NCBI GenBank assembly: GCA_028705775.1
Contig: JAQWCW010000011.1
Span: 1 to 64,000 of the forward strand
Source of the DNA: Eubacteriales bacterium
GTDB lineage: Bacteria; Bacillota; Clostridia; Christensenellales; Aristaeellaceae
Direction of reading: 5' to 3'
Length of the DNA: 64,000 bases
The translations under genes were made by a program, and so were the position numbers. Shown here in pieces: positions 45,385-61,868 of this stretch. The notes under the pieces are model-generated. The model was given only the letters and a program-made list of their open reading frames with translations. It searched no databases and was not told where the DNA came from. How positions within the stretch are numbered: the first letter of the stretch is position 1; each line of letters opens with the position of its first letter.

Positions 45385-46386
45385 TCACTCGCCGCATACG
45401 TCCTTAATCCAGCCCGTTACGCCGCGCGGGCAAACGTCCGCCATTGGCTCGCCCGTCAAATACATCAAATCCTGCGAAACGATATTGTTGCCGCAATGCT
45501 GCCCCATCTGCACTCCGCCGGCGATATTGGAGGCAACGCCTCCGTCGGCGTTCCGCAAAAGCTCCGGAAGCAAAAGCTGAACGCGCGGCATTTTGCGCAG
45601 ATACGGAAGTATCGGCTCAATAAAGAAGCTGTAATCGACCAGCTCGTCGTGAACGCCGTTATAGATGAGCAGCTTTACTCCGGCGGCGCTTACCTTTTCC
45701 AATTCGTCAGGCGAGGGCAGATACGCAGCGCCAATCAGCAGCGCGGCGCAGAAGCGTTCGGGCGCTGTAATGAGCATACGCCATGCCGCATAGCCGCCTG
45801 CCGACGAGCCGAAAAGCACAACTTTTCCGCAGCTTGTAAACGACGCGAGCGCCTCGCTGAGCAGCCGAAGGAGCGACGCGGTGTATACCGAATTCACGCC
45901 GAGAAGGGTCACGATGAATTTGCGCCTTTCCATAAACGGCTGCAAAGCGTCCGCGATGCTCTGCGGATAGCCGCAAAGTCCTCCGTCGGCTATTGGTGTT
46001 GTCCAGCACATACGCTTCGCGCCCTGCTTATCCGCCTTTTCGTTTGCAAGCGGGCAGACGATGTATGCCCCGCCCATTCTGCGCTGATATTCGGGAGAGG
46101 CGAAGGTTTCCGCGCCTGCCCAGCCGACTGCCGTTTTGCCGACGAGCGAGCCGCCCGCCCCATGCAGGGCGAAAATTACGGGGTACTTGCCCGAAGCGGG
46201 AAAGCCGTGCTTTGTGGGGTCATAGACGTAATAGCGCAATGCTCCTACGCTTTTGTCGGCGCCGGTGAAAAGCCTGTCCTCAAACAGATTCAGGAACTCG
46301 CCGCCGGTATACGAGGGCGTGTCGCTGATGAAATCATCATCGGAAAGGCAGTCTGCCCACGGATAAAGTTTCTTGTCAAGCTTCAT
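45385..46386 (-). CDS. Alpha/beta hydrolase (esterase/PHB-depolymerase-like)
   Basis: 333 aa, no signal peptide. The oxyanion strand PVIFALHGAGGSL, the nucleophile elbow VVLFGSSAGGYAAWRML (Ser), an acid in LLIYNGVHDELVDYSFF and a His in GGVQMGQHCGNNIV give a plausible Ser-Asp-His triad. It is probably an intracellular carboxylesterase acting on acylated sugars or similar small esters. The substrate cannot be read. It is preceded only by a weak ribosome site (AAAAGGAGA). Confidence 0.8.
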   Translation of the reverse strand: MKLDKKLYPWADCLSDDDFISDTPSYTGGEFLNLFEDRLFTGADKSVGALRYYVYDPTKHGFPASGKYPVIFALHGAGGSLVGKTAVGWAGAETFASPEYQRRMGGAYIVCPLANEKADKQGAKRMCWTTPIADGGLCGYPQSIADALQPFMERRKFIVTLLGVNSVYTASLLRLLSEALASFTSCGKVVLFGSSAGGYAAWRMLITAPERFCAALLIGAAYLPSPDELEKVSAAGVKLLIYNGVHDELVDYSFFIEPILPYLRKMPRVQLLLPELLRNADGGVASNIAGGVQMGQHCGNNIVSQDLMYLTGEPMADVCPRGVTGWIKDVCGE

Positions 46387-46550
46387 TTTTTCTCCTTTTC
46401 AGAAAAGCATTTTCGCAGAAATTCGCGTCATTATGAATTCAACGCTCGCAGTATAACAGAGTCATCGGCAGAACAATGTCATCAACGCAGCAAAGCAATC
46501 AATCAGGACTTGCCCCAAGCGAAGCAGAGTCCTCATCAAGGCATAGGCTC

Positions 46551-46676
46551 AACATAGCAAGGACTGTGAGCATAGTGACGACCGTGAGCATAGCAACGAC
46601 CGTGAGCATAGCAACGACCGTGAGCATAGCAACGACCGTGAGCATAGCAACGACCGTGAACATAATGACGACAATG
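46551..46676. repeat. 18-bp tandem repeat, seven units
   Basis: The unit agcatagcaacgaccgtg is repeated in register at 46551, 46569, 46587, 46605, 46623, 46641 and 46659. The middle four (46587-46658) are identical. The outer three have diverged. This pattern is typical of expansion by slippage with older edges. Confidence 0.95.
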
Positions 46677-47055: not shown

Positions 47056-47090
47056 AAAGGCGGCGGACTTTCGTCCGCCGCCCCTTTTGC
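47055..47090 (-). terminator. Terminator of the second sugar-binding protein gene
   Basis: GGCGGCGGAC (47059-47068) and GTCCGCCGCC (47073-47082) are perfect 10-bp arms with a TTTC loop. T-rich sequence follows on both strands. Confidence 0.85.
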
Positions 47091-47131: not shown

Positions 47132-48535
47132 TTACTGAGCAACGCCATTGGCGGTATCAAGATAAGCCTGCCAAGCGGGCATCTTGGTTTCAATAGCCTC
47201 AGCAACAGTTACAGCGCCGCCGGCGATATCCCAGAAGAAGCTCTGGCCCATAACGTCGTTGTCGGAGCCGAAGAGGCGGGATATGATGGAGGTGTTGTGA
47301 GCGCCGTCACGGAGGATGGCGTAGGTCTCATCAACAGCGCGGTCATCACGGAATCTGCTGTACATAGTGGACTTCCACGCATCGGGATCGGTAGCCAGTT
47401 CGTAACCGGGGGTCTCATCAGTCCAGAGGTTCCAAGCGAAAGCGATCTTCCAAGCGCGGTCAGCATCATAGAAGCCGGGCATTACGGTGATGTTTTCGCT
47501 AATGTCGGTCTGATAGTTGCCGGGCTGGTTCTTCGGGCCGGTGGGGAAGCATACCATGCCGAAATCGTCAACCATGCCATCAAGGTTGTAGCCTTGGTTT
47601 ACTTCGTAGGACTGACCTACATGGAAAGCAGCGCTGCCGGACTTGAACGCCTCATAGTACCAATCCCAGTTGGAATCGGGAGGGGTGGGCATTCCGTAGT
47701 TAACGATAATCTTCTGCGCCCAGTTAAGAGCTTCGATTACGTTGTCGCTCTGAGCGGTGCAGACGTACTTGCCGTCAACAACGTCAAAGAACTTACCAAG
47801 GTTGGAGGAAACAGCGACGCGCTGAGTGTCATCGTTGTTGCTCGCCATGCCGTAGGTGTCGTTTACGCCATCGTTATCGGTATCGCGGGTGCACTTCGCA
47901 AGCAGCTCTTCGAACTTTTCAAAGGTCCACTCGTTGTTCTTCTGCAGGTCATAGATGCTTTCAGGGTCAATACCGGCTTCTTCGACAAGACGCTTGTTGA
48001 AGAATACGACTTCACGGGGCTCGGCAGCGCCGGTGGAAGCTCCGTAAACAGCAGTGCCCTTGCTCATCAGGCTCACGATAGCGGGATTCCACTTAGAAGA
48101 GGTGAAATCGAGGCAATCGAGGGTGGACATATCGTAGAGCAGTCCGCCGTTCATCGCCGCGGATACGGAATCCGGACGCATAATCATCATGCGGTTCTCT
48201 TCGCCCTGGGTGTTGATGAAGTCCATCAGGGTCTGAGGATTGGTATTCCAGTCTCCGTCAGACTTCTGAATCATCTTGAAGTTGTAGGTCTGCATGCACC
48301 AGTCACGGAACTCGAGCTGAGCTTCTTCAGCAGCGCTGGTAGGCTCATTGGGAGTGCCGTCCGCAGCGGACCAGTAGTCGGTGACGATGATTTCCATGCC
48401 GCCGAGGTCGATGGGGTTGCCATTGGCATCCTTGATGATTTCCGGATATCCTTCGGGGACATCCTCCGCAACAGCAAAGCTGCATACGGACAGAACCATC
48501 ACGAGAGCCAGGAACAGTGAGATGAGTTTCTTCAT
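47132..48535 (-). CDS. Extracellular sugar-binding protein of an ABC importer
   Basis: 467 aa from ATG 48535, with a signal peptide MKKLISLFLALVMVLSVCSFAVA cut before EDV. A family-1 solute-binding fold follows (KRLVEEAGIDPESIYDLQKNNEWTFEKFEELL, then SGSAAFHVGQSYEV, MPGFYDADRAWKIAFAW). A DTDNDGVNDTYG loop matches an EF-hand/dockerin-like calcium site, common in this family. There is no lipobox, so it may be released or held by other parts. It has its own promoter downstream of the permease pair. GGAGG lies 11 nt before the ATG; ATG 48565 is the alternative. Confidence 0.88.
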   Translation of the reverse strand: MKKLISLFLALVMVLSVCSFAVAEDVPEGYPEIIKDANGNPIDLGGMEIIVTDYWSAADGTPNEPTSAAEEAQLEFRDWCMQTYNFKMIQKSDGDWNTNPQTLMDFINTQGEENRMMIMRPDSVSAAMNGGLLYDMSTLDCLDFTSSKWNPAIVSLMSKGTAVYGASTGAAEPREVVFFNKRLVEEAGIDPESIYDLQKNNEWTFEKFEELLAKCTRDTDNDGVNDTYGMASNNDDTQRVAVSSNLGKFFDVVDGKYVCTAQSDNVIEALNWAQKIIVNYGMPTPPDSNWDWYYEAFKSGSAAFHVGQSYEVNQGYNLDGMVDDFGMVCFPTGPKNQPGNYQTDISENITVMPGFYDADRAWKIAFAWNLWTDETPGYELATDPDAWKSTMYSRFRDDRAVDETYAILRDGAHNTSIISRLFGSDNDVMGQSFFWDIAGGAVTVAEAIETKMPAWQAYLDTANGVAQ

Positions 48536-48645
48536 GGTTTTGTTTTCCTCCTTTATTATTCCCATAAACGCTTTTGCTTTTCGTCAGAAAGCCTGCCGAA
48601 TAGTCAGCCAAAAGCGTATGATGAGCAATTTGTTTTGATGTAATT

Positions 48646-48674
48646 ATCATAGCACACTTTTCAAGAAAAGCGAA
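48646..48674 (-). promoter_or_regulatory. Promoter of the second sugar-binding protein
   Basis: On the - strand TTCGCT (48674-48669), 17 bp, TATGAT (48651-48646), with TGTGC upstream (extended -10). It gives a ~105-nt leader. Confidence 0.65.
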
Positions 48675-48683
48675 TACTATTCT

Positions 48684-48714
48684 CTTACGAAAATATACTT
48701 TTTGTTTTCGTAAG
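48684..48714. promoter_or_regulatory. 31-bp palindromic operator candidate
   Basis: CTTACGAAAA (48684-48693) and TTTTCGTAAG (48705-48714) are perfect 10-bp arms around 11 AT-rich bases, centred about 50 bp upstream of the start site of the binding-protein gene and with no following T tract. The position fits an activator or LacI-type site better than a terminator. Confidence 0.55.
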
Positions 48715-48742
48715 CGCCGTTTCGGTTAAACCCGCGGCATAA

Positions 48743-49750
48743 TTACATCTTGATTCCCGTCATGCTCAGGCTCTCAACAAACCCGCGCTGAGCGAATATG
48801 TAGAGAATAATGAGCGGGAAGGTGGACATCAGAACGCCTGTACCGATAATCTGCTGCTGGCGCGCTATGCTTACGGACGAGCCGGAAGCATTCTGCGTAT
48901 CCGCCATGTACTGCGAGAGGCGCATTGCAATGCGGCTCAGCTCGCCGGACAGCAGCGTTGCCGTTCCCATAAAGGTGTTGGAGTAGAAGATATCCGTCCA
49001 CTGCCAAACAAACGCGAACAGGAAGCAGCTGGTGAGAATCGGGAGAGCGTCGGGAAGCATTACGCGAACGAAGGTGTGAAGGCTTCCGCAGCCGTCAACG
49101 TAAGCCGCTTCTTCAAGGGATTTCGGAACTCCGCGGAAGTACTGCCTGAGCATATAGATGTACAAACCGTCTTTAAGACCCATGCAGGTCATGGACATCA
49201 AAAGATAAGGCGTTATCGTTTTGCGCAGGTTAAGCGGCTGCCCCTGAATCGCATTGAATATTCCGAATACATCGAAGAACCTGAAGTTTACGTGCAGCGA
49301 GGTTGAAATAACCTGCGGAGGAACGATGATTACCAGAATAACGCAGGCAAACCAAATCCTCTTGAGCGGGAAGTCGTATCTCGCGAAGCCGTAGCCGACG
49401 AGCGTGCAGGCGGCAACCTGCAGTACAGCCGTTATGAACGAAATCAGGATAGTGTTCATAAGCGCCGTAGGATACGACATCAGGTGGCTCGTGAGCGTAT
49501 AGTTGAGCGTCGTCGGGTTGCGCGGCAGAACGATTACCGTTGTATCGTAAATATCCTTTTCAGACATCAGCGAAATTGAAATCTTACTGAGGATTGGCTG
49601 CAGAATCATGAAGCACAGCCCGAACATCAGAAGCGCTCTGAGTATGTTTACGATAGCGCGCTTGCTCGTTGAGCGCAGAAGGTAGCCGCCGCTCTTGCGG
49701 TTGCGCTCCCAGAAGCTTTTAGCGTGCCACGTCTTGGGCGTGTTACTCAT
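48743..49750 (-). CDS. Sugar ABC permease, MalG type (system 2)
   Basis: 335 aa from ATG 49750 (GGGGGTG upstream, inside the end of the preceding permease). It has six membrane helices, with the cytoplasmic EAA loop EEAAYVDGCGSLHTFVRVMLPDALPI for ATPase contact and a basic N-terminal tail of ~40 residues. It pairs with 49743-50648. Confidence 0.88.
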   Translation of the reverse strand: MSNTPKTWHAKSFWERNRKSGGYLLRSTSKRAIVNILRALLMFGLCFMILQPILSKISISLMSEKDIYDTTVIVLPRNPTTLNYTLTSHLMSYPTALMNTILISFITAVLQVAACTLVGYGFARYDFPLKRIWFACVILVIIVPPQVISTSLHVNFRFFDVFGIFNAIQGQPLNLRKTITPYLLMSMTCMGLKDGLYIYMLRQYFRGVPKSLEEAAYVDGCGSLHTFVRVMLPDALPILTSCFLFAFVWQWTDIFYSNTFMGTATLLSGELSRIAMRLSQYMADTQNASGSSVSIARQQQIIGTGVLMSTFPLIILYIFAQRGFVESLSMTGIKM

Positions 49751-50648
49751 AATAGTGCACCCCCTTAGAGATGATGAAGGATGTAATGCCAATCAGAGCA
49801 ATCGCAACGCCGAAGTAAATCCAGCTCATTGCGGCGCTCAGACCGTAATCCAGATTGGCAAGCATGACCTCGCTGATACGGTCAAGCACGCCGTTCTCGC
49901 TGTCGCTCTTCATGAAGAAGTCGATTATCGTATATATGCAGTTTACAAGGAGCAGGGGGCTTACCATGGGGAAGGTTATCTTCCAGAAGGACTCCCAACG
50001 GGAGCAGCCTTCCATGTCCGCCGCTTCATACATACTGGGCGAAATGGTCTGGAGTCCGGAGAGGAATACGATTATCTGAATTCCGCTCGCCATGATTATG
50101 TCGTAGACTCCGTTTATTATTTCAAAAACCACGGAGAACGCGCGGGTTCCGATACCGGAGAGACGAAGTATGTCCTCAAGGGTTCCGGTAAGGTTTACGC
50201 CGGACTCATTGGCGACCGTGCTGATGGACTGCATAAGGTCGTTATTCGTTTCAAGTCCGAACAGAACGCCCGACGAGAGGATAACCGGAAGGAAGAACAC
50301 GGCTCTTACGAACGTGCGCCCCTTGAACTTCTGATTGAGGAACACGGCGATAACGAAGCTCAGAACCAGCGTAGCCAGCGAGTTGGTTACCATCGTGCCG
50401 ATTTCCTCAACAAGGAAGCGAGGGAAATCCGGGTCGCCGGTCAGGGCGAATTTATAGTTCTGGATGCCTACGAAGGTTTCCGTAAAGCCCGTAAGACCCG
50501 GAGTAACCTTCTCAAAGCTGAACATCAGCGACTGAGCCATAGGCTTGAGCATGAACATCAGAAAGCCGATTATAAACGGGAGAATGAACAGATAGCCCGT
50601 TACAGCGTTCTTTGAGCGCATGGTGCGCACATGCTTCTTCTTTGCCAT
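49743..50648 (-). CDS. Sugar ABC permease, MalF type (system 2)
   Basis: 301 aa, six membrane helices (first at about 16-38) and the EAA loop MYEAADMEGCSRWESFWKITFPMVSPL. The ribosome site AAGGGAGGG covers the DUF5696 stop, so the two are coupled. Confidence 0.88.
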   Translation of the reverse strand: MAKKKHVRTMRSKNAVTGYLFILPFIIGFLMFMLKPMAQSLMFSFEKVTPGLTGFTETFVGIQNYKFALTGDPDFPRFLVEEIGTMVTNSLATLVLSFVIAVFLNQKFKGRTFVRAVFFLPVILSSGVLFGLETNNDLMQSISTVANESGVNLTGTLEDILRLSGIGTRAFSVVFEIINGVYDIIMASGIQIIVFLSGLQTISPSMYEAADMEGCSRWESFWKITFPMVSPLLLVNCIYTIIDFFMKSDSENGVLDRISEVMLANLDYGLSAAMSWIYFGVAIALIGITSFIISKGVHYYE

Positions 50649-50649
50649 A

Positions 50650-53232
50650 TTAGCGCCCTCCCTTAACGGTGTAGCTGCGCGCGGGCACAGTCACTCCGTC
50701 TGCCGAATACGGCGCATCGCCGTAGTTAACATATACGCTTGTGCCGTTTTCATAGCGGGTTACCGCTACCTTTTCGGCAATGCGCTCATGCCCGACTATC
50801 TTCTGATTGCCGAGCCCGCTCATAGCGCTCTGATACTCGTTGGCAAGCTGAATCGCAAGGTCGCCCCATTCGCCGTAGCTGGAGGCAAAGTATCCGGAAT
50901 AGAAGCTATTCTGGAGAACCTGCGCCTTTTCCGCCATAAGCGAGAAGTTAAGACCCGCGCCGTATTCCGCTGCCTTCAGAAGCTGTGTGCGGTAGTCTCC
51001 GGCAAGGTTAATCGGGCTGCCGGTATACTCAAGACGGCCGTGAAGCGCGATTTGATAGAAGGGAACGGATACGTCGATAATCGAGTAAGCGCCGCCCATC
51101 AAATCCATCTCGGTAACGAGGTCTGCGTTCGTGAGCGCATAATCCATTCCGAGCTTGGTTGCCACCTTGAGGTCCTTCGCTTCGGCGTCAGCCATTATTC
51201 CTAGCTGAATCTGCTTGCTTTCCTCGCGCGATACGAAATCCTTGGGATTGTAATCGGCGGAAAGGATTGAGCCGACATCGCGGAACATTACGCCTTCCAC
51301 TCCCAGCTCATCAAGCTTGTTGAGGAGGTTCTTTGCGCACATCTGCATATAGGAGGGCTTTACAAGATAGCTGGCGTCGCGCCACTTCATCGGCGTGTAC
51401 CAGATGGTGGAATAGGGATAAAGCTCAATCCTGTCGCGGGTGGTGTACTTGGCGGCGTCGCGGAAAGCGATGAAGCCGTCGAAGAAATCGCTGTCGTAAG
51501 CGAACTCAACCGCGCCGTCAAGGTAAAGGTCAACGCCCTTATCCTTGGCCTTTGCGATAATCTGCCTGAGCCCGTTTTCCCCGCCGAGAGCGTTAACCGT
51601 ATGAACGCCGGTAAGCACCTGCTGTTGCAGTCCGCCGTTCGCCCAGCCGGTATAGATAAGCTTCAGATTGCGGATTCCGCTTTCAAGCAGCGAGTCCATC
51701 ATTTCCGCGCCTTGGTCAAACGTGGTCATGGGAACTTCAACCTGCTGAGGAAGACCCGCCTGCTGCAGCATCTTGTCGATAGCGCCGAGAACTTCAACGC
51801 TCACGGGCAAATCAGGGTTCTCGTTAGGCGTGAGGGAAGGATAACGGTTTGCAAGATAATCGCCGTAATAGGAAGCCATTTCGGCGTAATTATTCGTGTT
51901 GAGGAAACGGTAGCGCTGAACTATGTTTCCGCCCGAAACCTGCTCCTCATAGATGTAAACGCGGTTATTGGATTTTGCGGATACATCGTACTGGTCGCTG
52001 TGAAGCACGGTATAGCGGGCATAGCAGGTATTATAGCTGTTTATGTTTGCTCTGCCGCTGATATCCGCCAGAATTCCGGCGTAGGACGAATTCCCCTCAA
52101 GGATGCAGAGGAAGGAATCGTCGCCGTCCGTCATTGCGTAAAGCGGGAAAGTGCAGCGGGTTTCGTTTACAGCCTGACGGCGCTCAGAGCCCCAGTCCCA
52201 GCCGTACATATTGGCATAATAGTTATTCTGCGCAATCTTACCATTGTTGTAGTTGATAATCGCTCCGCCGCCGTCCGGAACTATCATGTATCCCTGGTCA
52301 GCCGTCGATGTCGCGCCGAAGGCGGGCAGAACGGCAAGATAGGTGATAGGGAAGTCGGGGAAGTAGCGGATTTCATCATAAGGAACTTCAACTACAAGGT
52401 CGTCGCCCTCAAGACGATAAATGATGGAGGCGTTGAAAACTGCCGCATTGGCTGCGCCGGTATCGGCAATGTTCTCAAGATCCTTGTAATAGTCCTCAGT
52501 GGTGTAGTTTACGCTCTGGAAATAGGTCTGCAGCTTCAGCTTTACATGGTCCGCAACGCCGTTGCGAAGGATGTACATCTTTTTGCCCTCGGCAAGCCCG
52601 GGATACATGGCCTCAAGAGCCGCTACATCATCGCTTGCCTTATACTTTTCGGGGTTGTAAAGACGGTAGCTGTCGGTAACCTTACGCTTGTCGGACTTGC
52701 TCATCGAATCGATAAGCTCGTTCATGCGCTCCTCGGTAACGGCATAAGGCACATAGAAGGTCTTGTTAACCTTACCTATGGTGTAGTTGACCTTGATTGA
52801 GCCGTCATCAAGCCGCACAACATCGTAAACGCCGTTTTCAACGCTGTAAGTGAAGTTATTGAAGTGGGTTACTACGCCGTCCGTCGTCGAATAGCTGACG
52901 ACCAGCGTTGACTTCATTCTTTCCTTTTCAGCCTTCAGCGCTATCGGGTCGGAATCGACATCCTCAGGATTGGAGCGCCAGATGTGATTCGTCGCCTTAT
53001 CCGTAACGGTGAACTGCGTGGTAAGGGGGTCAAAGGCAAAGAGAAGCTTGTCGTTCTCCATTGTCATTTCTTTGTCGTCTCCGGAGTACGCGAAATACTC
53101 AGGCTCTTCTCTGTCGATATCCTCCTTGACGGAGTAGATAGGGACAAACACAAAGATGATGAGTACCGCAAGCACAGCGGCGGTTATCAGCCATGGGAGA
53201 AGGCGGCGAAAGAGAGGTTTTTTCTTATTCAT
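50650..53232 (-). CDS. DUF5696 membrane-anchored protein, probable glycosidase-like barrel
   Basis: 860 aa from ATG 53232 (GGAGG 7 nt upstream; GTG 53238 is too close). One N-terminal membrane anchor (about 12-33), the rest outside. Residues ~60-400 are a beta-rich domain. Residues ~440-760 look like a TIM barrel of the GH type (MDSLLESGIRNLKLIYTGWANGG, KAKDKGVDLYLDGAVEFAY, GVEGVMFRDVGSILSADYN, TEMDLMGGAYSIIDVS), with acidic residues at strand ends (D in LYLDGA, D in FRDVGS). This matches the architecture annotated as DUF5696. No activity is established. It is embedded between two permease pairs, so oligosaccharide trimming or capture at the membrane is the likely job. Confidence 0.7.
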   Translation of the reverse strand: MNKKKPLFRRLLPWLITAAVLAVLIIFVFVPIYSVKEDIDREEPEYFAYSGDDKEMTMENDKLLFAFDPLTTQFTVTDKATNHIWRSNPEDVDSDPIALKAEKERMKSTLVVSYSTTDGVVTHFNNFTYSVENGVYDVVRLDDGSIKVNYTIGKVNKTFYVPYAVTEERMNELIDSMSKSDKRKVTDSYRLYNPEKYKASDDVAALEAMYPGLAEGKKMYILRNGVADHVKLKLQTYFQSVNYTTEDYYKDLENIADTGAANAAVFNASIIYRLEGDDLVVEVPYDEIRYFPDFPITYLAVLPAFGATSTADQGYMIVPDGGGAIINYNNGKIAQNNYYANMYGWDWGSERRQAVNETRCTFPLYAMTDGDDSFLCILEGNSSYAGILADISGRANINSYNTCYARYTVLHSDQYDVSAKSNNRVYIYEEQVSGGNIVQRYRFLNTNNYAEMASYYGDYLANRYPSLTPNENPDLPVSVEVLGAIDKMLQQAGLPQQVEVPMTTFDQGAEMMDSLLESGIRNLKLIYTGWANGGLQQQVLTGVHTVNALGGENGLRQIIAKAKDKGVDLYLDGAVEFAYDSDFFDGFIAFRDAAKYTTRDRIELYPYSTIWYTPMKWRDASYLVKPSYMQMCAKNLLNKLDELGVEGVMFRDVGSILSADYNPKDFVSREESKQIQLGIMADAEAKDLKVATKLGMDYALTNADLVTEMDLMGGAYSIIDVSVPFYQIALHGRLEYTGSPINLAGDYRTQLLKAAEYGAGLNFSLMAEKAQVLQNSFYSGYFASSYGEWGDLAIQLANEYQSAMSGLGNQKIVGHERIAEKVAVTRYENGTSVYVNYGDAPYSADGVTVPARSYTVKGGR

Positions 53233-53243
53233 ACGCACTCCTC

Positions 53244-53921
53244 CTAGAATAGCCTGAACACGATTTCGCGGTACAGTGATACGAAATAGCTGATAGCGTC
53301 GCTGATGAGGCTGAGGAACAGCAGCAGCAGGAAGATGATAATCAGCATTCCGAACAGAGACATAATCGTGAACAGGAACGTCTTACCGACTGAATAATCG
53401 TGAATTTCCATCATCGCGATAACGATGAGGTATACTGCCCAGATTAAGGAGAGCGCCGCGAACACATAGTAGAAAGCGCCTTCCTCGGTCGTGATGACAT
53501 TGCTCAGAAGAATCAGCGGCAGTTGAATCAGCGGATACGGCAGAATGGAATAGCACATTCCGACGTAAATATCCTTGAACGTGCCTTTGCCGTCGAACAG
53601 GGTCGTCCAGCACCAGTTTGCCGTTACGAAAACGATAAGCGGCAAGAGGAGCGAGAGGCACTCCTGAAACACGTTGACGTATTCCCAGTTTACCGACATG
53701 AACTGGAAGTTCGTGAACTCCAGCGTCAGAATTCTGGTAAGCAGCACAAAGAACATGATGGTGTTTGCCGCCGCCATTGAGCCGCGCTTCTCATGCGTCA
53801 AATCCCAATACCCGTCAAAGGGATGGAGCAGGCAGTAAAACGCGAAGCGAAGGGACGCGCCGTACCGCGACCACCATTGCTTATCAAGTATCGCGGGGCG
53901 TTTGCGTGACATAGCCGTCAA
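53244..53921 (-). CDS. YIP1-family membrane protein
   Basis: 225 aa with five hydrophobic helices (about 50-70, 85-105, 120-145, 150-170 and 180-210) and the conserved entry LRFAFYCLLHPFDGYWDLTHEKRGS. YIP1/DUF1282 proteins are small polytopic proteins without a defined bacterial function. TTG 53921 is preferred because GAGGTG lies 8 nt upstream and it overlaps the previous stop (TTGA). An ATG at 53912 is the alternative. Confidence 0.75.
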   Translation of the reverse strand: MTAMSRKRPAILDKQWWSRYGASLRFAFYCLLHPFDGYWDLTHEKRGSMAAANTIMFFVLLTRILTLEFTNFQFMSVNWEYVNVFQECLSLLLPLIVFVTANWCWTTLFDGKGTFKDIYVGMCYSILPYPLIQLPLILLSNVITTEEGAFYYVFAALSLIWAVYLIVIAMMEIHDYSVGKTFLFTIMSLFGMLIIIFLLLLFLSLISDAISYFVSLYREIVFRLF

Positions 53922-55411
53922 GATTTATTCACCTCCGCTTTTATCTTCTTCACCTTACCGACGACAAGCGGGACAACCATAGCAGCCGCAACCAGCGCGA
54001 ATATCCAGCCTATGTTCTGCTCAACCCATTCCTTGCGGTACAGGCGGAAAGCTTCGCCGTAGTTTTTCCAATCGCGCGGATAACGGAAGTATTCCATCGC
54101 CTCGCCGTACTTTTCCTGACGAAGCAGGGAGCGCCCGACGCCGATGAAGGCTTGGTCATAGTTGCCGTTGAGCTTGAGCACCTCGCGCCACGTATCAGCG
54201 GACGCGTCGTACTCGCCTCTCAGGTACTGGTCGTTAGCGGTATAGATGAGATTGCAGTATTCAGTTGGCGTGAATATGGTAACGCTGCACTCGATGGAGT
54301 CAAGCACCATGAGGTCGTTGCCCATATGGTCTATTGCAACGGCGTTGAGGAAGTAGCCATCGCTGTTTCCCGAACCGCCGAACGCCCAGAACATAATTCC
54401 GCGGGTGTCATATCCGAAAAGCCTGCCGCGGACGCGGTCGAGCGCTACGTAGGTTTCGTTATCCAGAACGGTTATGTCGATAAGGCGGCTCGGGCCGTTG
54501 ATATCCGCGTCCTCCGCCCAGTCAAGCTCGCCAATCGGAGGCTGACGGACATTGGATTTAACAAGAATATCGTTTCCGATTGCATTGAGCTTTCTGATGG
54601 GGTTTGCAGTATCGCTCAGAAGCTCCTCAACCGCGAAGGTTGCTGTTACGGCGTAGATGAAGCCCTTCTTATCCATATATATATTGTCGTACTCGGTAGG
54701 AACGAAGGACTCCTGCTTGGAGCGCTGCTCCTTGGTGGAGAAGAGCTTCCAGATGTAGTCTATCATGTCGAACTTAACCTTGTTCGCGCCGATGTAGCCG
54801 GTGAACTCGCCGTCAGCCTCGTACTTAATCAAGCCCTTGTTGACGTTCTTGCACAGAGCGAAAACTCTGCCCGAAACGTCGACAACAAGCTTTGACGGAA
54901 GGAAGCTGAGGTTCTGGTCGAAGGTTTCGTCGGTAGGCTTTTCGTATGACTTTATGAAGTTGCAATCCTTGTCCATCATGACGACGCGATTGTTATTCGT
55001 GTCGCAGACGTAGATATTGCCTGCTTTGTCAACGAAAACGTCCTGCGGGGTGGAGAAATTCTCGGGCGTTCCGCCAATCACGGTATCAATTACGCGCACG
55101 AGCTTATATTCCGAATTCTCGTGCTTTACCTCCAGAAGCCGGTTGTTGCCGGTATCGCAGATGTAAATGTAATCGCCCGAAACAAACATACCCTGCGGGG
55201 ACCGCATAGGCTTATCAAGCCCAAGCATTGTGCTGTTCAGAACCGTCTTAACGCGGTAAGCGTCGGGTGACTCGCGAATATCAAACCAATAGTCGTAGGT
55301 ATAGGTATAGCGAGTCTGAAGCCCGTCCGCGGCAAATGCGGTCGTACTCAGCAGCAGCAGCGCGGCCGTGAGCAGAAGCGCCGCAATCCTGCGCATTCCC
55401 TTTGTTCTCAT
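53918..55411 (-). CDS. Exported NHL-repeat propeller protein with C-terminal anchor
   Basis: 497 aa from ATG 55411 (AGGAGGG 7 nt upstream; the longer frame to 55681 is a shadow inside the permease). The signal peptide ends at AFA. The NHL blades are clear: SPQGMFVSGDYIYICDTGNNRLLEV, then TPQDVFVDKAGNIYVCDTNNNRVVMMD and further blades to about residue 390. A TPR-like helical stretch (AFIGVGRSLLRQEKYGEAMEYF) follows, then a membrane helix near 465-485 with a Lys-rich tail inside. It is probably a surface glycan- or protein-binding platform for the importer. Confidence 0.8.
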   Translation of the reverse strand: MRTKGMRRIAALLLTAALLLLSTTAFAADGLQTRYTYTYDYWFDIRESPDAYRVKTVLNSTMLGLDKPMRSPQGMFVSGDYIYICDTGNNRLLEVKHENSEYKLVRVIDTVIGGTPENFSTPQDVFVDKAGNIYVCDTNNNRVVMMDKDCNFIKSYEKPTDETFDQNLSFLPSKLVVDVSGRVFALCKNVNKGLIKYEADGEFTGYIGANKVKFDMIDYIWKLFSTKEQRSKQESFVPTEYDNIYMDKKGFIYAVTATFAVEELLSDTANPIRKLNAIGNDILVKSNVRQPPIGELDWAEDADINGPSRLIDITVLDNETYVALDRVRGRLFGYDTRGIMFWAFGGSGNSDGYFLNAVAIDHMGNDLMVLDSIECSVTIFTPTEYCNLIYTANDQYLRGEYDASADTWREVLKLNGNYDQAFIGVGRSLLRQEKYGEAMEYFRYPRDWKNYGEAFRLYRKEWVEQNIGWIFALVAAAMVVPLVVGKVKKIKAEVNKS

Positions 55412-55437
55412 CCTTAGCCCTCCTATCATAGCCGCAC

Positions 55438-56394
55438 TTACTCTTTGATGCCCGACGAAGCCATCGTCTCGAGAATCTGACTCTGAGAGCAGATGAAAAT
55501 GACGATAGGAACCAGCATTACGATTACGGTAACGGCAGCTGCCTGACCTGTACGGGCGACGCCGCCTGCCTGAATCTGCTGCAGGGCGTATACGAGGGTT
55601 TTCTTCGCCTCGGAGTAGATAACCGTGGACGCCTTGGCGTTCCAGAGATTCTGCACCGAGAAAATGATAACCGTGAGCCACGCGGGCTTTACGTTCGGCA
55701 TGACTATGCGCCAGAAGATTCTGAACTCGCCTGCGCCGTCTATCTTGGCGGACTCTATGAGCGCCGTCGGTATTCCCTCCATGAACTGCTTCATAAGGAA
55801 CAGCCCAATCGGGGCGGCGAGCGCCGGCAGGATTATCGCCATATAGGTATCGATGATTCCGAGGTTGCTCATGATGATGTAGTTCGGAATTCCGGTAACG
55901 TAGCCGGAGAACATGAGCGCGGTAACAACGATATTGAAGAAAAGCTTTCCGCCCGGGAAATCATACTTCGCAAGCACGAACGCCGCCATGGAGGCGATGA
56001 AAAGGTGACCTGCCGTGCCGATAAGCGTTATCAGACCGGTATTCACGAAGTAGCGGGAGAAGGGAACCCACGACTGACCCATCGTGACGAACAAATCGGA
56101 GAAGTTGTCCATCGTCGGGTGCTGCGGGAAAAGCGTAGGCGGGAAACGGAACAGCTCGTCAAGGGGCTTCAAGGATGACGAAATCGCGAACACAAGCGGG
56201 AACGCCATCATGAGAGCCACTATGGTAAGCATGAAATAGACTCCGAAATCGCCGCCGCGCGAACGGTTAGGCTTGCGGCGATGCGCTATGCTGACCGTCT
56301 TTTGCGCCTTCTGATTGCGCTTGCGGTCCTTGCGGTCGCCGATTGATTCCTTGGGGGCTGCTATCTTTACTTTTGCGGCTGCTGTATTGCTCAT
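55438..56394 (-). CDS. Sugar ABC permease, MalG type (system 1)
   Basis: 318 aa, a long Lys/Arg-rich cytosolic N-terminus (~50 residues) followed by six membrane helices and the EAA loop ALIESAKIDGAGEFRIFWRIVMPNVKPA. It overlaps the partner permease by ATGA. Confidence 0.9.
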   Translation of the reverse strand: MSNTAAAKVKIAAPKESIGDRKDRKRNQKAQKTVSIAHRRKPNRSRGGDFGVYFMLTIVALMMAFPLVFAISSSLKPLDELFRFPPTLFPQHPTMDNFSDLFVTMGQSWVPFSRYFVNTGLITLIGTAGHLFIASMAAFVLAKYDFPGGKLFFNIVVTALMFSGYVTGIPNYIIMSNLGIIDTYMAIILPALAAPIGLFLMKQFMEGIPTALIESAKIDGAGEFRIFWRIVMPNVKPAWLTVIIFSVQNLWNAKASTVIYSEAKKTLVYALQQIQAGGVARTGQAAAVTVIVMLVPIVIFICSQSQILETMASSGIKE

Positions 56395-57326
56395 GTACCC
56401 ACCTTTCTCAGCGCGGACTGGATGATTTTATTGCAGAGAATCATGACCAGGAACAGTAGCGTTGCGATAGCCGATGCGTAACCCATCTCAAAGCGGGAAT
56501 AACCATAGTCAAACAGATGGGTTACGACCGTTCGCGCTGCATAGTCCGTACTTGGATAGCCTGCCAGCGCCATTGTTACGTCGCAGACTCCGAACGCCTG
56601 CGTTATCGACATAACCGCGCCGAACATCAGCATCGGCTTCATCGAGGGCAGCGTTACGAAGTACAGCTCCTGCCAGCGGTTGCGGATACCGTCCACATAG
56701 CCTGCCTCGTAGAGCGCAGGGTCAACGCCCTGCAAGCCGGCTACGAAGGATAGGAAGCCCGTGCCCATTGACATCCACAGTATAACGATTATACACACGG
56801 GGAGGATGTAGGTCGGGTTCGAGAGCCAGAGAACGGGAGCGTCGATAATTCCGAACTCAGTCAGAATCGAGTTGAGGTAGCCGTAAATATCGCCGCGGAA
56901 GATGATGCCGAAGATGTAATATGCGTTTCCGGCGATGGACGGAGCGTAGAAGATAACTACCGCTATCGTCCTCAGCCATCTCGGCAGCTCGTTTATGAAC
57001 CACGCGAATAGGAAGGAAAGCATATATCCGACAGGGCCGGTTACGATAGCTATAATGAAGGTATTCTTCACGGCTGTAAGGAAGATTTCATCCTGAAGAA
57101 TCAGGTTGATATAGTTATCGAAGCCAATGAAGCGAGCCGGCTCAAGGATATTATAGTAGGTGAAGCTGTAATAGATTGAGGTCAGCATCGGCAGGATATA
57201 GAAGGTAAAGAACAGTATCGCGTAGGGCGCGATAAAGAGGTAGCATACCTTCATCCGCTTCGCTTTGTCCCATCCGTAGCGGGCGCGGTCCTTCTTGAGC
57301 TTGACATACTTAGAAAATGTACTCAT
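56391..57326 (-). CDS. Sugar ABC permease, MalF type (system 1)
   Basis: 311 aa from ATG 57326 (GAGGTG upstream). It has six membrane helices and the EAA loop LYEAGYVDGIRNRWQELYFVTLPSMKPM. It starts 8 bp after the large binding protein. Confidence 0.9.
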   Translation of the reverse strand: MSTFSKYVKLKKDRARYGWDKAKRMKVCYLFIAPYAILFFTFYILPMLTSIYYSFTYYNILEPARFIGFDNYINLILQDEIFLTAVKNTFIIAIVTGPVGYMLSFLFAWFINELPRWLRTIAVVIFYAPSIAGNAYYIFGIIFRGDIYGYLNSILTEFGIIDAPVLWLSNPTYILPVCIIVILWMSMGTGFLSFVAGLQGVDPALYEAGYVDGIRNRWQELYFVTLPSMKPMLMFGAVMSITQAFGVCDVTMALAGYPSTDYAARTVVTHLFDYGYSRFEMGYASAIATLLFLVMILCNKIIQSALRKVGT

Positions 57327-57334
57327 CCGACACC

Positions 57335-60250
57335 TCACTCAAGAGGCAGACCGAACTCGGTCCGCTTCTTTTCAATTTCCTCGTTGATGGTTCTCGTGTA
57401 ATTGAGCAGCGTTTCGCGCGCGTCCGTCTTGTCATTGATAACCTTACGGATAGCGTTGGTCATATGCCAGTTCGTATAGTAGCCGCCGGCGATTTCACGA
57501 TAGCCGACAGTCCACTTGCGCTGCTCGGAAAGGGTTTCAATCTGCTCGGCGCTCCAAGCAAGCTGCCTGAAGGCGTTCATGTTAGCGGTGGCATAACGGG
57601 CGCTGGAGCCGAGAACGCTTTCAATTTCGCGTCCGAAGCGAACCTGCGAATCGGTGCTTACCCACCACTTCATGAATTCCCAGCAGTTATTGAGCATTTC
57701 CTCATCCTCGGTCGCAATCATCATGCAGCTCGTGCCCTGCGAATGAACCGAGTGGTCGATATAGGTCTTTCCGTTTGCATCCTGCCTTGCGGTTCCGGGA
57801 ATCAGGGTGAAATCCCAGAGTCCGCGGATTTCAGGCGCGGAAACCATCAGGGTGTTATAGGTCGTATAGTCGAAGACGCCGAGCGGCATTTCGCCGGAAC
57901 GGAAACGGCTTACGAAGTCGAATACCGTAGGCAGACCGTAATCGTTATACAGCGAGGTGTACAGCTCAAACGCGCTTACGCCCGATTCAGAGTCAATAAG
58001 CGTCTTGGTCGCGCGCTCGTCGTACATCGCTCCGCCGTTCTGATAGAGCATAGAATAATACGGCGCGAGGTTCGGCGCGAGAATATCAGGATAAGGAATG
58101 CCGACGGAGAGGTTGTTGCCCTGAATCGTGGGCAGCATCGCTATCAGCTCGTCCCAAGTATTCGGCACGGTGAGCCCAAGCTCGTCAAGAACGTCCTGAC
58201 GGTAGAACAGCACGGAATAGGTCTGCGTTTCAGGCAGTCCGTAAAGCCCTTCGTCAAGCCTCAAGGCGGCATAGGCGCTCGGATTGTAATTTTCAAGAAT
58301 CGCATCGCAGTCGCTGAAGCGGCGCAAATCAACCGCCGCATTGCGCAGCGCGTACTGAACGGGGTTCCATGTGTCGGTCGAAACCACGATGTCGGGGCCG
58401 TTGCCGGCAACGACGGCGCCCAGAAGCGCGGTCGGGTCAACAAGCTTGACGTTTACCTTGATTCCCGAAGCGGGAGTGAAGGAATCGTCAATCATCGTTT
58501 TAAGAATGGTGCTCTGGTCACGGCCGGTCATAATCCACGCGTCGATAACCTCATCGTCGCTTCCGTACACGTCGCCGAGCATATTGTAGTCAACGAAGAA
58601 GGAAGTAAGGCAGGAGCGGATTTCATGCATTGCGCTGTCAAAGAAATTCTCGCTTTCAGCCTGAACCTTCGCGTCAACGCCGCTGAGCACGATGTAGTCA
58701 ACGTCAAGGCGCATCTGGCTCATGTTCTGCATCGCAGTTCCGAGAGCCGTGATGTTATCCTTGAAGTTGGTGAAGGAGCGGGTGATGCGGTCGTTGTTTT
58801 CAACGAACTGCTCAAGCTGAACGGCAAGCGTCTGCGCAACGGCAATACGGTCGCTCTTCTGACCCGTGCAGGCAACGGTGCGGTCAACCAGATTGTAAAG
58901 GCGCTTGCTTTCAAGCTCCATCGCGTCGATAACCTCGGGATAGACGCCGATGATGTTGTAATCACGGAATCTGTCCGGATTGACGCCGGTAAGAATCAGA
59001 ACCTTGCGGTAGATTTGGTTGAGGCGGTAGATGGAATCCTCCATCTCCTTGAGGATGTCGCCCATCTCGCCGAGGGTGGTCTCAAGGCGTACACGGTGAG
59101 TGCCCTTCTTGAGATAGAACTGATAGGGAGTTCCCTCCTCGTCGGAAAGGGTCATCATGTTCCACTGGTTCGCATAGAAGAAGGTCAGCGTTTTTGCTTC
59201 CTCGAAGGGAATGTCGCCGTCGATGTACAGCGAACGGCAGGAAAGACCGCCGCGCTGATAATTCTGGCGCGCCTTGATGGTTAGATTATAGAAGCCGTCC
59301 TCGGGCGCTTCCACTTCCCACTCTATCCACTGCCCCGGCAGATTCCACGCCGTGCCGCCGATATAGTTGAGAATCGTGTTCCTTACGCTGTAAGGACGGG
59401 TGGCAGCCGAGGAGCGGTCATACCTTGCGTACAGCGAGGTGGAGGAGCGAAGGTCGGAATCCTCGCCCTGAACTATCTCGATGTAATTCTTCGCATCGGC
59501 GCTCATTTCGGCTTCGGGCTGAGCGGCGCGGTAATCAGCATAGCTGCTTTCCGTGAGAATCGGCATGACCGATATCCCGCGGATAATCACCGGCTCGTTT
59601 ACAGCCGTGAGGGAGACGGTATTTTCGCCCTCATTAAAGTAGAAGCGATACGGCTCGACGACGTAGCCCATAGCGTCGCGGCAGTAAGCAGATTGAGGCT
59701 CAAAGCGCTCAACCTGCGACGGGCGTACATCGTTGCCCTGATTGTCCTTGCGAACTTCGCCGCCATCCGTCCAAAGACGGGTGAACACCATCGTGTCGGC
59801 GCCCGCAAAAGGAACCTTACCGTTAATCATCAGCGAGCGTTCAATGTCAACGCCGCGCGAAGGAACGGTAAGATAGTCAATCATGATATTGTAAAGACCG
59901 GCCTTAGGAAGCGTTACCTTCCATTCCGCAACCGAGTTCACGTCGGTATACACGGCCTGCGTCCCGTCCTCCATCGCGCGGACTTCCACACCCGCAGACG
60001 GCGAAACGCCAAGGACGTCGACAACGGCGCCCTCAGTCGGTCTTTCCAGAGAGCCATAGCTCTCCAGATAGTGGGTATAGGTGTCTCTGCGGCCGATACC
60101 TGTTACGTCGGTCGCAAGGTCTACCCCCTCGTATTTGTTCCCGTAGTTCTCTGTCCCACCCGACAGCAGTATCCACAAGGCGAATAATAGCACTACGCCA
60201 AGGAAAATGAGCAGAGTGCGCAGCCACTTCCTCTTCATGTAAGCGGTCAT
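57335..60250 (-). CDS. 971-aa membrane-anchored multidomain solute-binding protein
   Basis: An unusually large binding protein. It has an N-terminal anchor (about 9-30), then two jelly-roll-like carbohydrate-binding modules with similar text (about 90-235: WKVTLPKAGLYNIMIDYLTVP...SLMINGKVPF...FYFNEGENTVSLTAV; about 300-395: WEVEAPEDGFYNLTIKARQN...SLYIDGDIPF...FYLKKGTHRVRLET), a helical segment (about 400-550) and a family-1 solute-binding domain (about 560-940, GPDIVVSTDTWNPVQYALRN, RRFS, ETQTYSVLFYRQDVLDELGL). Typical binding proteins are 400-550 aa lipoproteins. The start at 60250 has GGGGGAGG very close, and ATG 60238 is the alternative. It is first in the operon. Confidence 0.82.
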   Translation of the reverse strand: MTAYMKRKWLRTLLIFLGVVLLFALWILLSGGTENYGNKYEGVDLATDVTGIGRRDTYTHYLESYGSLERPTEGAVVDVLGVSPSAGVEVRAMEDGTQAVYTDVNSVAEWKVTLPKAGLYNIMIDYLTVPSRGVDIERSLMINGKVPFAGADTMVFTRLWTDGGEVRKDNQGNDVRPSQVERFEPQSAYCRDAMGYVVEPYRFYFNEGENTVSLTAVNEPVIIRGISVMPILTESSYADYRAAQPEAEMSADAKNYIEIVQGEDSDLRSSTSLYARYDRSSAATRPYSVRNTILNYIGGTAWNLPGQWIEWEVEAPEDGFYNLTIKARQNYQRGGLSCRSLYIDGDIPFEEAKTLTFFYANQWNMMTLSDEEGTPYQFYLKKGTHRVRLETTLGEMGDILKEMEDSIYRLNQIYRKVLILTGVNPDRFRDYNIIGVYPEVIDAMELESKRLYNLVDRTVACTGQKSDRIAVAQTLAVQLEQFVENNDRITRSFTNFKDNITALGTAMQNMSQMRLDVDYIVLSGVDAKVQAESENFFDSAMHEIRSCLTSFFVDYNMLGDVYGSDDEVIDAWIMTGRDQSTILKTMIDDSFTPASGIKVNVKLVDPTALLGAVVAGNGPDIVVSTDTWNPVQYALRNAAVDLRRFSDCDAILENYNPSAYAALRLDEGLYGLPETQTYSVLFYRQDVLDELGLTVPNTWDELIAMLPTIQGNNLSVGIPYPDILAPNLAPYYSMLYQNGGAMYDERATKTLIDSESGVSAFELYTSLYNDYGLPTVFDFVSRFRSGEMPLGVFDYTTYNTLMVSAPEIRGLWDFTLIPGTARQDANGKTYIDHSVHSQGTSCMMIATEDEEMLNNCWEFMKWWVSTDSQVRFGREIESVLGSSARYATANMNAFRQLAWSAEQIETLSEQRKWTVGYREIAGGYYTNWHMTNAIRKVINDKTDARETLLNYTRTINEEIEKKRTEFGLPLE

Positions 60251-60550
60251 TCCTCCCCCGAACGGGCGTATGCCCGATTCGTTCTTTCGCCACCAGCGGG
60301 ATTCCGCCGGATGATGCCCGCGGAAAATGCAGTGGATTCATTATGGAGCGCGCGCTTTTTTCGTACGCAGCACACAGCTTCACACAATGATGCTTTTTGA
60401 TATGTGCCCATTATACATAGACAATATAAAGGGTACAGCTCAAAAATTGCTTTTTACCGTCTGTTCCTTGCCATTTTCGCGGGATTTACAATTAAAAGAC
60501 AAAGTACGCGGCAACTTACTTAATGCGAACGTAACTTTATTCTTTTCTAT

Positions 60551-60579
60551 AAATTATACCTAAACAGCCCGATTGTCAA
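60551..60579 (-). promoter_or_regulatory. Promoter of the nine-gene sugar locus
   Basis: On the - strand consensus TTGACA (60579-60574), then TATAAT (60558-60553) at a short 15-bp spacing, or TAATTT (60556-60551) at 17 bp. The sub-optimal spacing suggests dependence on an activator. Confidence 0.55.
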
Positions 60580-60678
60580 CAGGTAATATTGACGAATCTC
60601 CAAATTAAATGGATAAAATCAAACCAGAAAAGTCATATATATCAACGCTTTTAATTCATTTCACCTCCGAAGAAAATA

Positions 60679-60703
60679 CTTAATTTACTTAACTAAAATT
60701 AAG
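60679..60703. promoter_or_regulatory. Inverted repeat upstream of the sugar-locus promoter
   Basis: CTTAATTT (60679-60686) and AAAATTAAG (60695-60703) flank 8 bp. It is centred about 115 bp upstream of the - strand promoter. It differs from the operator at 48684-48714. Operator candidate only. Confidence 0.35.
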
Positions 60704-60796
60704 CAAACTCATCATAAACGTCGAATCAGGTCGAATTGTCGCCGCAAAAACTGCGAACCCGACGCGCACGTTTTGATGTATAGCCGTCATACACAT

Positions 60797-60864
60797 ATAT
60801 AAACGAACACGCGTTCCTACGCTGCGCGCTCTGCATTTACCTTGACAAACACACGCGTTTATAT
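60797..60864. promoter_or_regulatory. argC control region: TTGACA and 9-bp inverted repeat
   Basis: ATATAAACG (60797-60805) and CGTTTATAT (60856-60864) are perfect 9-bp arms 50 bp apart, each next to ACACGCG. TTGACA (60842-60847) lies between them with a weak CAAAAT (60865-60870) at 17 bp. The symmetric sites could be bound by ArgR (encoded at 5107) or bracket a DNA loop. This is unproven. Confidence 0.35.
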
Positions 60865-60926
60865 CAAAATGCAAGGGTATACCGCGGATATAACGCGGCA
60901 AGATAAGGAATTGCGGAGGCAGCAGG

Positions 60927-61868
60927 ATGGTAAAAGTGTATGTGGACGGTCAAGCCGGTACAACCGGTCTGAAAATATTTGAGCGCCTTAGCGCGCGCAG
61001 CGACGTAACAATAATGAGAATCCCCGATGAAAAGCGCAAGGACGCCGCCGCGCGGAGCGAAATGCTGAACTCGGCGGACGTTGTTTTCCTCTGCCTGCCC
61101 GATGACGCGGCGCGCGAGGCCGTATCAATGATTCGCAGCGGCAGCGTACGCGTTATCGACGCGTCGACCGCGCACAGAACGAATCCCGATTTCGATTACG
61201 GCTTTCCGGAGCTGTCTACCGAGCGCCGCGCCAATATAATAGGAAGTAAACGCGTAGCCGTTCCCGGCTGTCACGCGAGCGGGTTTATATCGCTCGTCTA
61301 TCCTCTTACCGCGTCGGGCGCTCTTGATAAATCCGAAAGGCTCTCAGCGCACAGCATAACCGGCTATTCCGGCGGCGGCAGGAAGATGATTGAGGAATAC
61401 GAAAACCCGCAAAGGGACAAGGCATATTCCGGAACGCGCATATACTCGCTGGGGCTTTCCCACAAGCATCTGCCCGAAATGGCGTATGTGACGGGGCTTT
61501 TGAATCCCCCAATCTTTGACCCGATTCTAGGCGATTATTACGAGGGAATGCTCGTGTCTGTTCCCCTCTCATCCGGTCAGCTGGGCGGAAGAAGCGCCGA
61601 GCAGATTCATGAAATCTACGCAAAGCATTATGAAGGAAGCCGCTTTGTAAAGGTTATGCCGCTCGGCGAGATTCCGGACGGCGGCCGCCTTGACCCGCAG
61701 GCGCTCAACGGAACGAACGAAATGCAGATTTTTGTATTCGCAAACGGCGATGATATGCTGCTTGTGTCCCGCTTTGACAACCTTGGCAAGGGCGCGTCGG
61801 GCGCGGCAGTTCAATGCTTCAACCTGATGACGGGCGCTAAAGAGGACGAGGGGCTGACAATATGCTGA
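60927..61868 (+). CDS. argC: N-acetyl-gamma-glutamyl-phosphate reductase (type 2)
   Basis: 313 aa, third step of arginine synthesis. VKVYVDGQAGTTGLKIFERL is the N-terminal NADP motif of the shorter type 2 ArgC. The catalytic Cys is in VAVPGCHASGFISLVYPL, and SGLGHKHLPEMAYV-like SLGLSHKHLPEMAYVTGL and GANEMQIFVF-like GTNEMQIFVF follow. No other arg gene adjoins it. The ribosome site is GGAGGCAGCAGG. It overlaps the next gene by 7 nt. Confidence 0.93.
   Translation: MVKVYVDGQAGTTGLKIFERLSARSDVTIMRIPDEKRKDAAARSEMLNSADVVFLCLPDDAAREAVSMIRSGSVRVIDASTAHRTNPDFDYGFPELSTERRANIIGSKRVAVPGCHASGFISLVYPLTASGALDKSERLSAHSITGYSGGGRKMIEEYENPQRDKAYSGTRIYSLGLSHKHLPEMAYVTGLLNPPIFDPILGDYYEGMLVSVPLSSGQLGGRSAEQIHEIYAKHYEGSRFVKVMPLGEIPDGGRLDPQALNGTNEMQIFVFANGDDMLLVSRFDNLGKGASGAAVQCFNLMTGAKEDEGLTIC

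Follow-up and report, generated by a model that had tools for sequence, protein, structure and literature searches.

What is imported by a cell that encodes two sets of sugar permeases and solute-binding proteins side by side, and why should three uncharacterised proteins be encoded between them? The question is raised by a nine-gene locus in the window, i.e. the whole 64,000-nucleotide stretch of clostridial DNA that was analysed. How long oligosaccharides are taken up has been worked out much less well for Gram-positive fibre degraders than for the Bacteroidota with their SusCD route. The locus is a real, conserved and hemicellulose-linked import cassette on the CUT1 importer theme, one that was glimpsed before in Anaerocellum (Caldicellulosiruptor) bescii. 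It probably specifies a conserved multi-subunit importer for long hemicellulose oligosaccharides, in which a shared ATPase drives two permease pairs and the NHL, YIP1 and DUF5696 proteins act as non-catalytic subunits.

Organization and components of the locus

All nine open reading frames are present on the minus strand (47132..60250) in the order SBP1-PermA-PermB-NHL-YIP1-DUF5696-PermC-PermD-SBP2, Pfam supports each gene label, and neither an ATPase nor a classic glycosidase is found by Pfam among the nine, all as the initial annotation had described. The tight coupling that it claimed for the entire set applies to the first eight genes; the intergenic gaps from SBP1 to SBP2 are -4, -4, +26, -4, +5, +1, -8 and +177 bp, so SBP2 stands behind a longer spacer. 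The xloE-like SBP1 (57335..60250; 971 aa; Pfam SBP_bac_8; AF2 pLDDT 89.6) possibly starts at Met5 (60238), as judged from the ribosome-binding site. Its predicted structure consists of an N-terminal TM helix, two beta-sandwiches (about residues 75-230 and 257-392), a helical bundle and a CUT1-type solute-binding domain; the nearest PDB folds are oligosaccharide-binding proteins, and the N-terminal part is cassette-specific. The CUT1 permeases PermA (56391..57338) and PermB (55438..56394), both matching BPD_transp_1, are followed by the NHL beta-propeller protein (53918..55411; Pfam NHL 41 bits and a weak TPR match), whose ribosome-binding site suggests a start at about 55411 to give 497 aa, laid out as a signal/TM helix (9-27), propeller, TPR-like stretch and C-terminal TM helix (467-485). 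The YIP1-family multi-pass membrane protein (53244..53921; Pfam Yip1 42 bits) has four predicted TM segments. The DUF5696 protein (50650..53238; Pfam DUF5696 603 bits over residues 248-856) comprises an N-terminal TM anchor, beta-domains, a GH129-like TIM barrel and a C-terminal beta-domain. A second pair of CUT1 permeases matching BPD_transp_1, PermC (49743..50648) and PermD (48743..49750; 335 aa from the start at 49750 suggested by its ribosome-binding site), precedes the solute-binding protein SBP2 (47132..48565; Pfam SBP_bac_1), the true start of which is likely about 48535 to yield 467 aa.

A putative operon promoter is expected in the intergenic region 60251..60926, beyond which a divergent argC-like gene starts at 60927. 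A GC-rich hairpin with a 10-bp stem just beyond SBP2 (47059..47082, listed on the plus strand), which on the minus strand is followed by TTTCTTTT, is a possible operon terminator. Between the cassette and the next gene lies a tandem array (46550-46665) with an 18-base unit, read by eye, of about agcatagcaacgaccgtg. The lone downstream gene (45385-46386, minus strand) has an alpha/beta-hydrolase fold, matches Esterase and PHA-depolymerase models weakly and is possibly a carbohydrate esterase.

The CUT1 pattern of two BPD_transp_1 permeases with an SBP_bac_1-type binding protein occurs twice in the locus. The window genome contains one OB_MalK (MalK/MsmK-type) ATPase, unlinked to the locus, and this ATPase presumably serves the cassette; A. 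bescii requires the shared ATPase MsmK for growth on xylan (PMC8579813).

Counterpart in Anaerocellum bescii

The locus had been put forward as a candidate for an undescribed system, a view weakened by the published xylan degradation locus (XDL) of A. bescii (Athe_0174-0185), whose operon reads xloEFG-X-GH129-axoFGE-xynF-xynE-xynD-xyn10A-xynX-xynB (Rodionov et al. 2021, PMC8579813, Table 3). This operon is differentially expressed on xylan and cellulose, with the proximal genes up about 10- to 100-fold (PMC8579813), and binding of XynR to the XDL operator at Athe_0174 was measured in 2025 (PMC12285236). Xylan induction and XynR control are published for the A. bescii cassette only (PMC8579813, PMC12285236); the XDL transporters of C. 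saccharolyticus (Csac_2412, Csac_2417-2419) respond to xylan-rich biomass (PMC5658599). The exact 20-base XDL operator occurs a single time in one of the genomes analysed (G379), 170 bp before the SBP1 orthologue, and is followed there by SBP1, PermA, PermB, a 716-aa NHL-YIP1 fusion, DUF5696, PermC, PermD and an SBP. This genome would accordingly be that of A. bescii, an assignment resting on the exact operator match and the gene order. Behind the cassette of its sister genome stand GH43-GH43-CBM6, GH10, GH39, GH10, esterase and GH39 genes.

Because the order in the window is that of the A. bescii XDL, as matched by gene order and exact operator, the gene set is already known and xylan-induced. 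The three middle genes are called merely "X" and "GH129" there and their mechanism is uncharacterised. DUF5696 is named in no paper that the literature search found; the same search yielded no biochemistry, pull-down or mutant for the NHL, YIP1 or DUF5696 proteins, and nothing relevant on NHL or YIP1 proteins together with carbohydrate ABC transporters.

Conservation of the cassette and its two modules

Recurrence of the gene order across the phylum shows that the arrangement is not due to chance. The full set in the same order recurs in dozens of loci within the bacterial family of the window, a family with rumen and hindgut Clostridia among its members, and DUF5696 is present in 112 of 200 sampled genomes of that family; the cassette is also found in Paenibacillus, Butyrivibrio and Anaerocellum. 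A Butyrivibrio fibrisolvens plasmid carries the same order with the public annotation "NHL repeat-containing / YIP1 family / DUF5696 domain-containing", as does a Paenibacillus cellulosilyticus plasmid, apparently with an NHL-YIP1 fusion. The latter cassette (L167) adjoins four LLM-class flavin-dependent oxidoreductases and a UgpC ATPase gene, and may serve a non-hemicellulose ligand. The window genome itself has a second cassette on another contig (L042, contig C42) with fused NHL-YIP1, a short DUF5696 and a GH51-like arabinofuranosidase downstream, and at one locus of another genome (L126, G352) PermB is split into two ORFs that flank a third, which makes this cassette look disrupted by an insertion.

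Among 77 DUF5696 loci found phylum-wide, NHL lies upstream of DUF5696 in all 77, either as NHL-YIP1 (51 loci) or as one long NHL protein directly upstream (24 loci), with two irregular calls; PermC is next after DUF5696 in 75 and the PermC-PermD pair in 74. The NHL-YIP1 fusion comprises 24 proteins, each matched by both profiles, and partners short-form and long-form DUF5696 alike. Two other candidates were rejected, a long NHL that is an ORF extension (L073) and a 2221-aa "DUF5696" that is mostly masked sequence (L151). SBP1-PermA-PermB stands upstream of DUF5696 in 66 loci, downstream in five and non-adjacent in six, and where separate it is found elsewhere in the same genome. The genes thus fall into a module A (SBP1-PermA-PermB) and a module B, consisting of the core NHL-YIP1-DUF5696-PermC-PermD, which is invariant across 16 sampled families, and a changeable SBP2. 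The earlier picture of two importers bracketing the middle genes is therefore right as to order, but PermC-PermD belongs with NHL-YIP1-DUF5696 and module A can sit elsewhere.

The modules co-occur even when unlinked. In 399 phylum genomes, the SBP1 N-part and full-length DUF5696 are found together in 37 (in one of these the N-part is just a fragment where a contig begins), full-length DUF5696 alone in none, the SBP1 N-part alone in two and neither in 360; in the two SBP1-only genomes (L157, L158) the contig ends within the next gene. The Fisher P of 3e-50 is inflated, since the genomes are related and not phylogenetically independent. Such co-occurrence of the middle genes with the 971-aa binding protein is what the initial annotation had asked to be checked, and it proves to be strong. 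With DUF5696 accompanied by the SBP1 N-part in 37 of 37 genomes, and with the synteny above, the proposal that the genes make up a single conserved assembly for carbohydrate uptake, its three middle proteins being uncharacterised, is supported. Matching of SBP1 and DUF5696 copy numbers was dropped for three-copy genomes, as no more than three candidates are scored in the phylum searches. A stand-alone SBP1 N-part homologue of about 450-560 aa without the SBP domain occurs in four genomes of one family (L137, L154, L155, L156, L164), two of which have a weak DUF5696 match, once in a DUF6259 protein; these are possibly a distant variant of the system.

These patterns bear on a different reading, in which the operon encodes two ordinary and independent CUT1 importers, e.g. 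for xylo- and arabinoxylo-oligosaccharides, and the NHL, YIP1 and DUF5696 proteins are minor accessories or hitchhikers. XloEFG and AxoFGE are regarded as two transporters (PMC8579813), the permeases of both pairs are normal BPD_transp_1 proteins, several genomes have module A unlinked, and many of the patterns seen would equally arise from two independent importers in one operon. Strict co-occurrence of the modules even where unlinked, a core that is invariant in 16 families and repeated NHL-YIP1 fusion are nevertheless unexpected for hitchhikers. Moreover, SBP2 changes while the SBP domain of SBP1 keeps a median identity of 66% across cassettes: PermA is the most conserved part at 73%, and DUF5696 (43%) and SBP2 (41%) are low, SBP2 being the least conserved and having the lowest identity in 318 of 406 pairs. 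Independent importers are consequently regarded as rather improbable, and the multi-subunit importer is retained, with SBP2 and DUF5696 as the presumptive glycan-facing, substrate-adapted parts and module A as the constant machinery.

Hemicellulose context and likely ligand

Hemicellulase genes are concentrated around the cassettes: in 200 genomes of the family, 28 of 150 listed GH10 genes are no more than 12 kb away from a listed DUF5696 gene, as compared to 2.0 expected (~14-fold; P 2e-22). Other neighbours include GH26 with CBM27 or CBM35, GH5, GH43, GH51, GH3, GH30, GH67, CBM65 and LacI regulators. Two cassettes (L119 and L065) adjoin a PF10091 "glycoamylase" protein with GH35, and GH38, respectively, which suggests glycans other than xylan or mannan, and the cassette seems to serve several glycans. 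At the window locus no GH gene is adjacent, the hairpin and the lone alpha/beta-hydrolase gene coming directly after the cassette; the five GH10 matches and one GH67 of the window genome are all away from it. Since the nearest relatives of the window SBP2 mostly adjoin GH10 or GH5, one set with GH67, and since the genome has these GH10s and GH67, the ligands of the window locus are likely xylan-derived oligosaccharides, as judged from the relatives.

The regulator genes among these neighbours bring up a further alternative, that the middle proteins form a surface sensor which reports bound glycan to the transcription machinery and take no part in transport. Ligand sensing is conceivable for a degenerate glycosidase combined with an NHL propeller and a YIP1 membrane protein, and LacI or two-component genes adjoin many cassettes. 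On the other hand, none of NHL, YIP1 and DUF5696 has a Pfam match to a signalling domain such as a kinase or anti-sigma domain, separate regulators are already there, and the core is always joined to PermC-PermD and not to regulators, which makes a sensor highly improbable.

The DUF5696 barrel

The AF2 model of DUF5696 (pLDDT 90) has as its best PDB matches by Foldseek DagB (5opq, E 2.6e-32) and NagBb (5wzn, 2.6e-26), then GH101, GH36 and GH31, and the DUF5696 profile also finds NagBb and DagB by sequence (E 2e-11); hmmscan of the protein returns DUF5696 as the sole Pfam match. The GH129 profile PF11308 matched neither the window genome nor any of 250 phylum genomes, but it hit no control genome either, and GH129 fragments searched against plasmids gave nothing, so that no direct alignment of catalytic residues was available; positions were mapped onto NagBb and DagB by strand order and not by superposition. 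The second catalytic residue of NagBb, the general acid, is presumably E478. NagBb D435 corresponds to D486 of DagB, and the second NagBb residue is not kept in DagB, where other acids serve (PMC5698469).

By strand order the nucleophile position corresponds to D654 of the window protein, a long-form DUF5696 that keeps D574, D654, D662 and D722. This Asp is kept in 50 of 55 long forms, the window included, and D722 in 54 of 55, and the two could constitute an active pair in the long forms. Of 22 short forms, a single one is acidic at this position, and A. bescii has Thr there. In the same mapping, no conserved acid is found at positions 692-703, after beta-5, where the general acid is expected (L696 and D699 in the window protein), and the residues conserved family-wide are mostly Gly, Pro and Asn, plus Trp532.

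An active, membrane-anchored, retaining GH129-like exo-glycosidase that trims side groups before uptake by two importers, the view of the initial annotation and of the "GH129" label in A. bescii, would draw support from the closest fold being GH129, of which the relative DagB is an exo-glycosidase, from the acids kept in the long-form clade and from the DagB precedent for substitute acids. It is countered by the 21 of 22 short forms that are non-acidic at the nucleophile position, among them that of the xylan-induced A. bescii cassette, by the lack of a conserved acid after beta-5 and by the make-up of the residues conserved family-wide. Since short-form cassettes are intact, and induced by xylan in A. 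bescii, catalysis through the nucleophile Asp seemingly is unneeded for the cassette, and a hydrolase is unlikely. DUF5696 apparently is a worn-out sugar-cutting enzyme and most likely a binding or hand-off subunit. Of the "capturing and trimming" of a glycan proposed at the outset, capture is supported and trimming becomes doubtful, as GH129-like catalytic residues are unconserved family-wide.

A proposed import machine

In the multi-subunit importer favoured here, secreted endo-hemicellulases (GH10, GH26, GH5) would release long oligosaccharides, and SBP2, as the fast-evolving specificity subunit, would together with the membrane-anchored DUF5696 barrel keep the chain at the membrane. Joined in a single membrane scaffold, the NHL propeller and YIP1 would dock DUF5696 on PermC/PermD, tethered SBP1 on PermA/PermB would be the machine's constant second half, and both permease pairs would be powered by a shared MsmK-type ATPase. 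Complex formation, hand-off and the non-catalytic role of DUF5696 are the parts of this scheme that we infer; synteny and fusion fall short of proving a physical complex of all nine proteins. Should the middle proteins prove obligate for transport, something is missing from models of xylan use that reckon with a "GH129" enzyme and two simple importers, and the use of a pseudo-enzyme as an ABC importer subunit would, if true, be a new principle. The cassette is directly testable in A. bescii, for which deletions of msmK and athe_0595-0598 are published.

Comparison with known systems

The A. bescii cassette shares with the window the gene set and order, with the SBP1 orthologue right behind the XynR operator, and neither has a local ATPase. 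They differ in that NHL and YIP1 are one protein in A. bescii and two genes in the window, in the DUF5696 type (short form without the nucleophile as against long form) and in the xylan-enzyme genes that follow the A. bescii cassette and are missing behind that of the window. CUT1 importers powered by shared MsmK/MsmX (e.g. Athe_0595-0598, PMC12838199) resemble the cassette in their permease pairs, SBP fold and lack of a local ATPase; unlike them, the cassette has two permease pairs, a membrane-tethered SBP with two beta-sandwiches and obligate NHL, YIP1 and DUF5696 partners. With GH129 NagBb and GH129-like DagB, DUF5696 has in common the overall fold and a significant profile similarity, but it is distinguished by its membrane anchor, its insertions and catalytic residues that are unconserved across the family.

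A barrel-only profile (A5) left beta-4 uncovered when run against the PDB, and its match to 4F2hc (E 0.099) was insignificant and was rejected as evidence. In 4F2hc and rBAT, the heavy chains of human amino-acid transporters, a glycosidase-like barrel that is membrane-anchored and non-catalytic is paired with a transporter. Tentatively, and as a reading less likely than not, one may envisage the nine proteins as one stable envelope complex, a Bacillota counterpart of SusCD for the import of long hemicellulose chains, in which both CUT1 permease pairs and an NHL-YIP1 scaffold would act together with a dead GH129-type ectodomain as a true transporter subunit in the manner of 4F2hc. The comparison is by analogy only: 4F2hc and rBAT have a GH13-like fold and serve another transporter class, whereas a pseudo-glycosidase barrel joined to a transporter would be the same principle in both.
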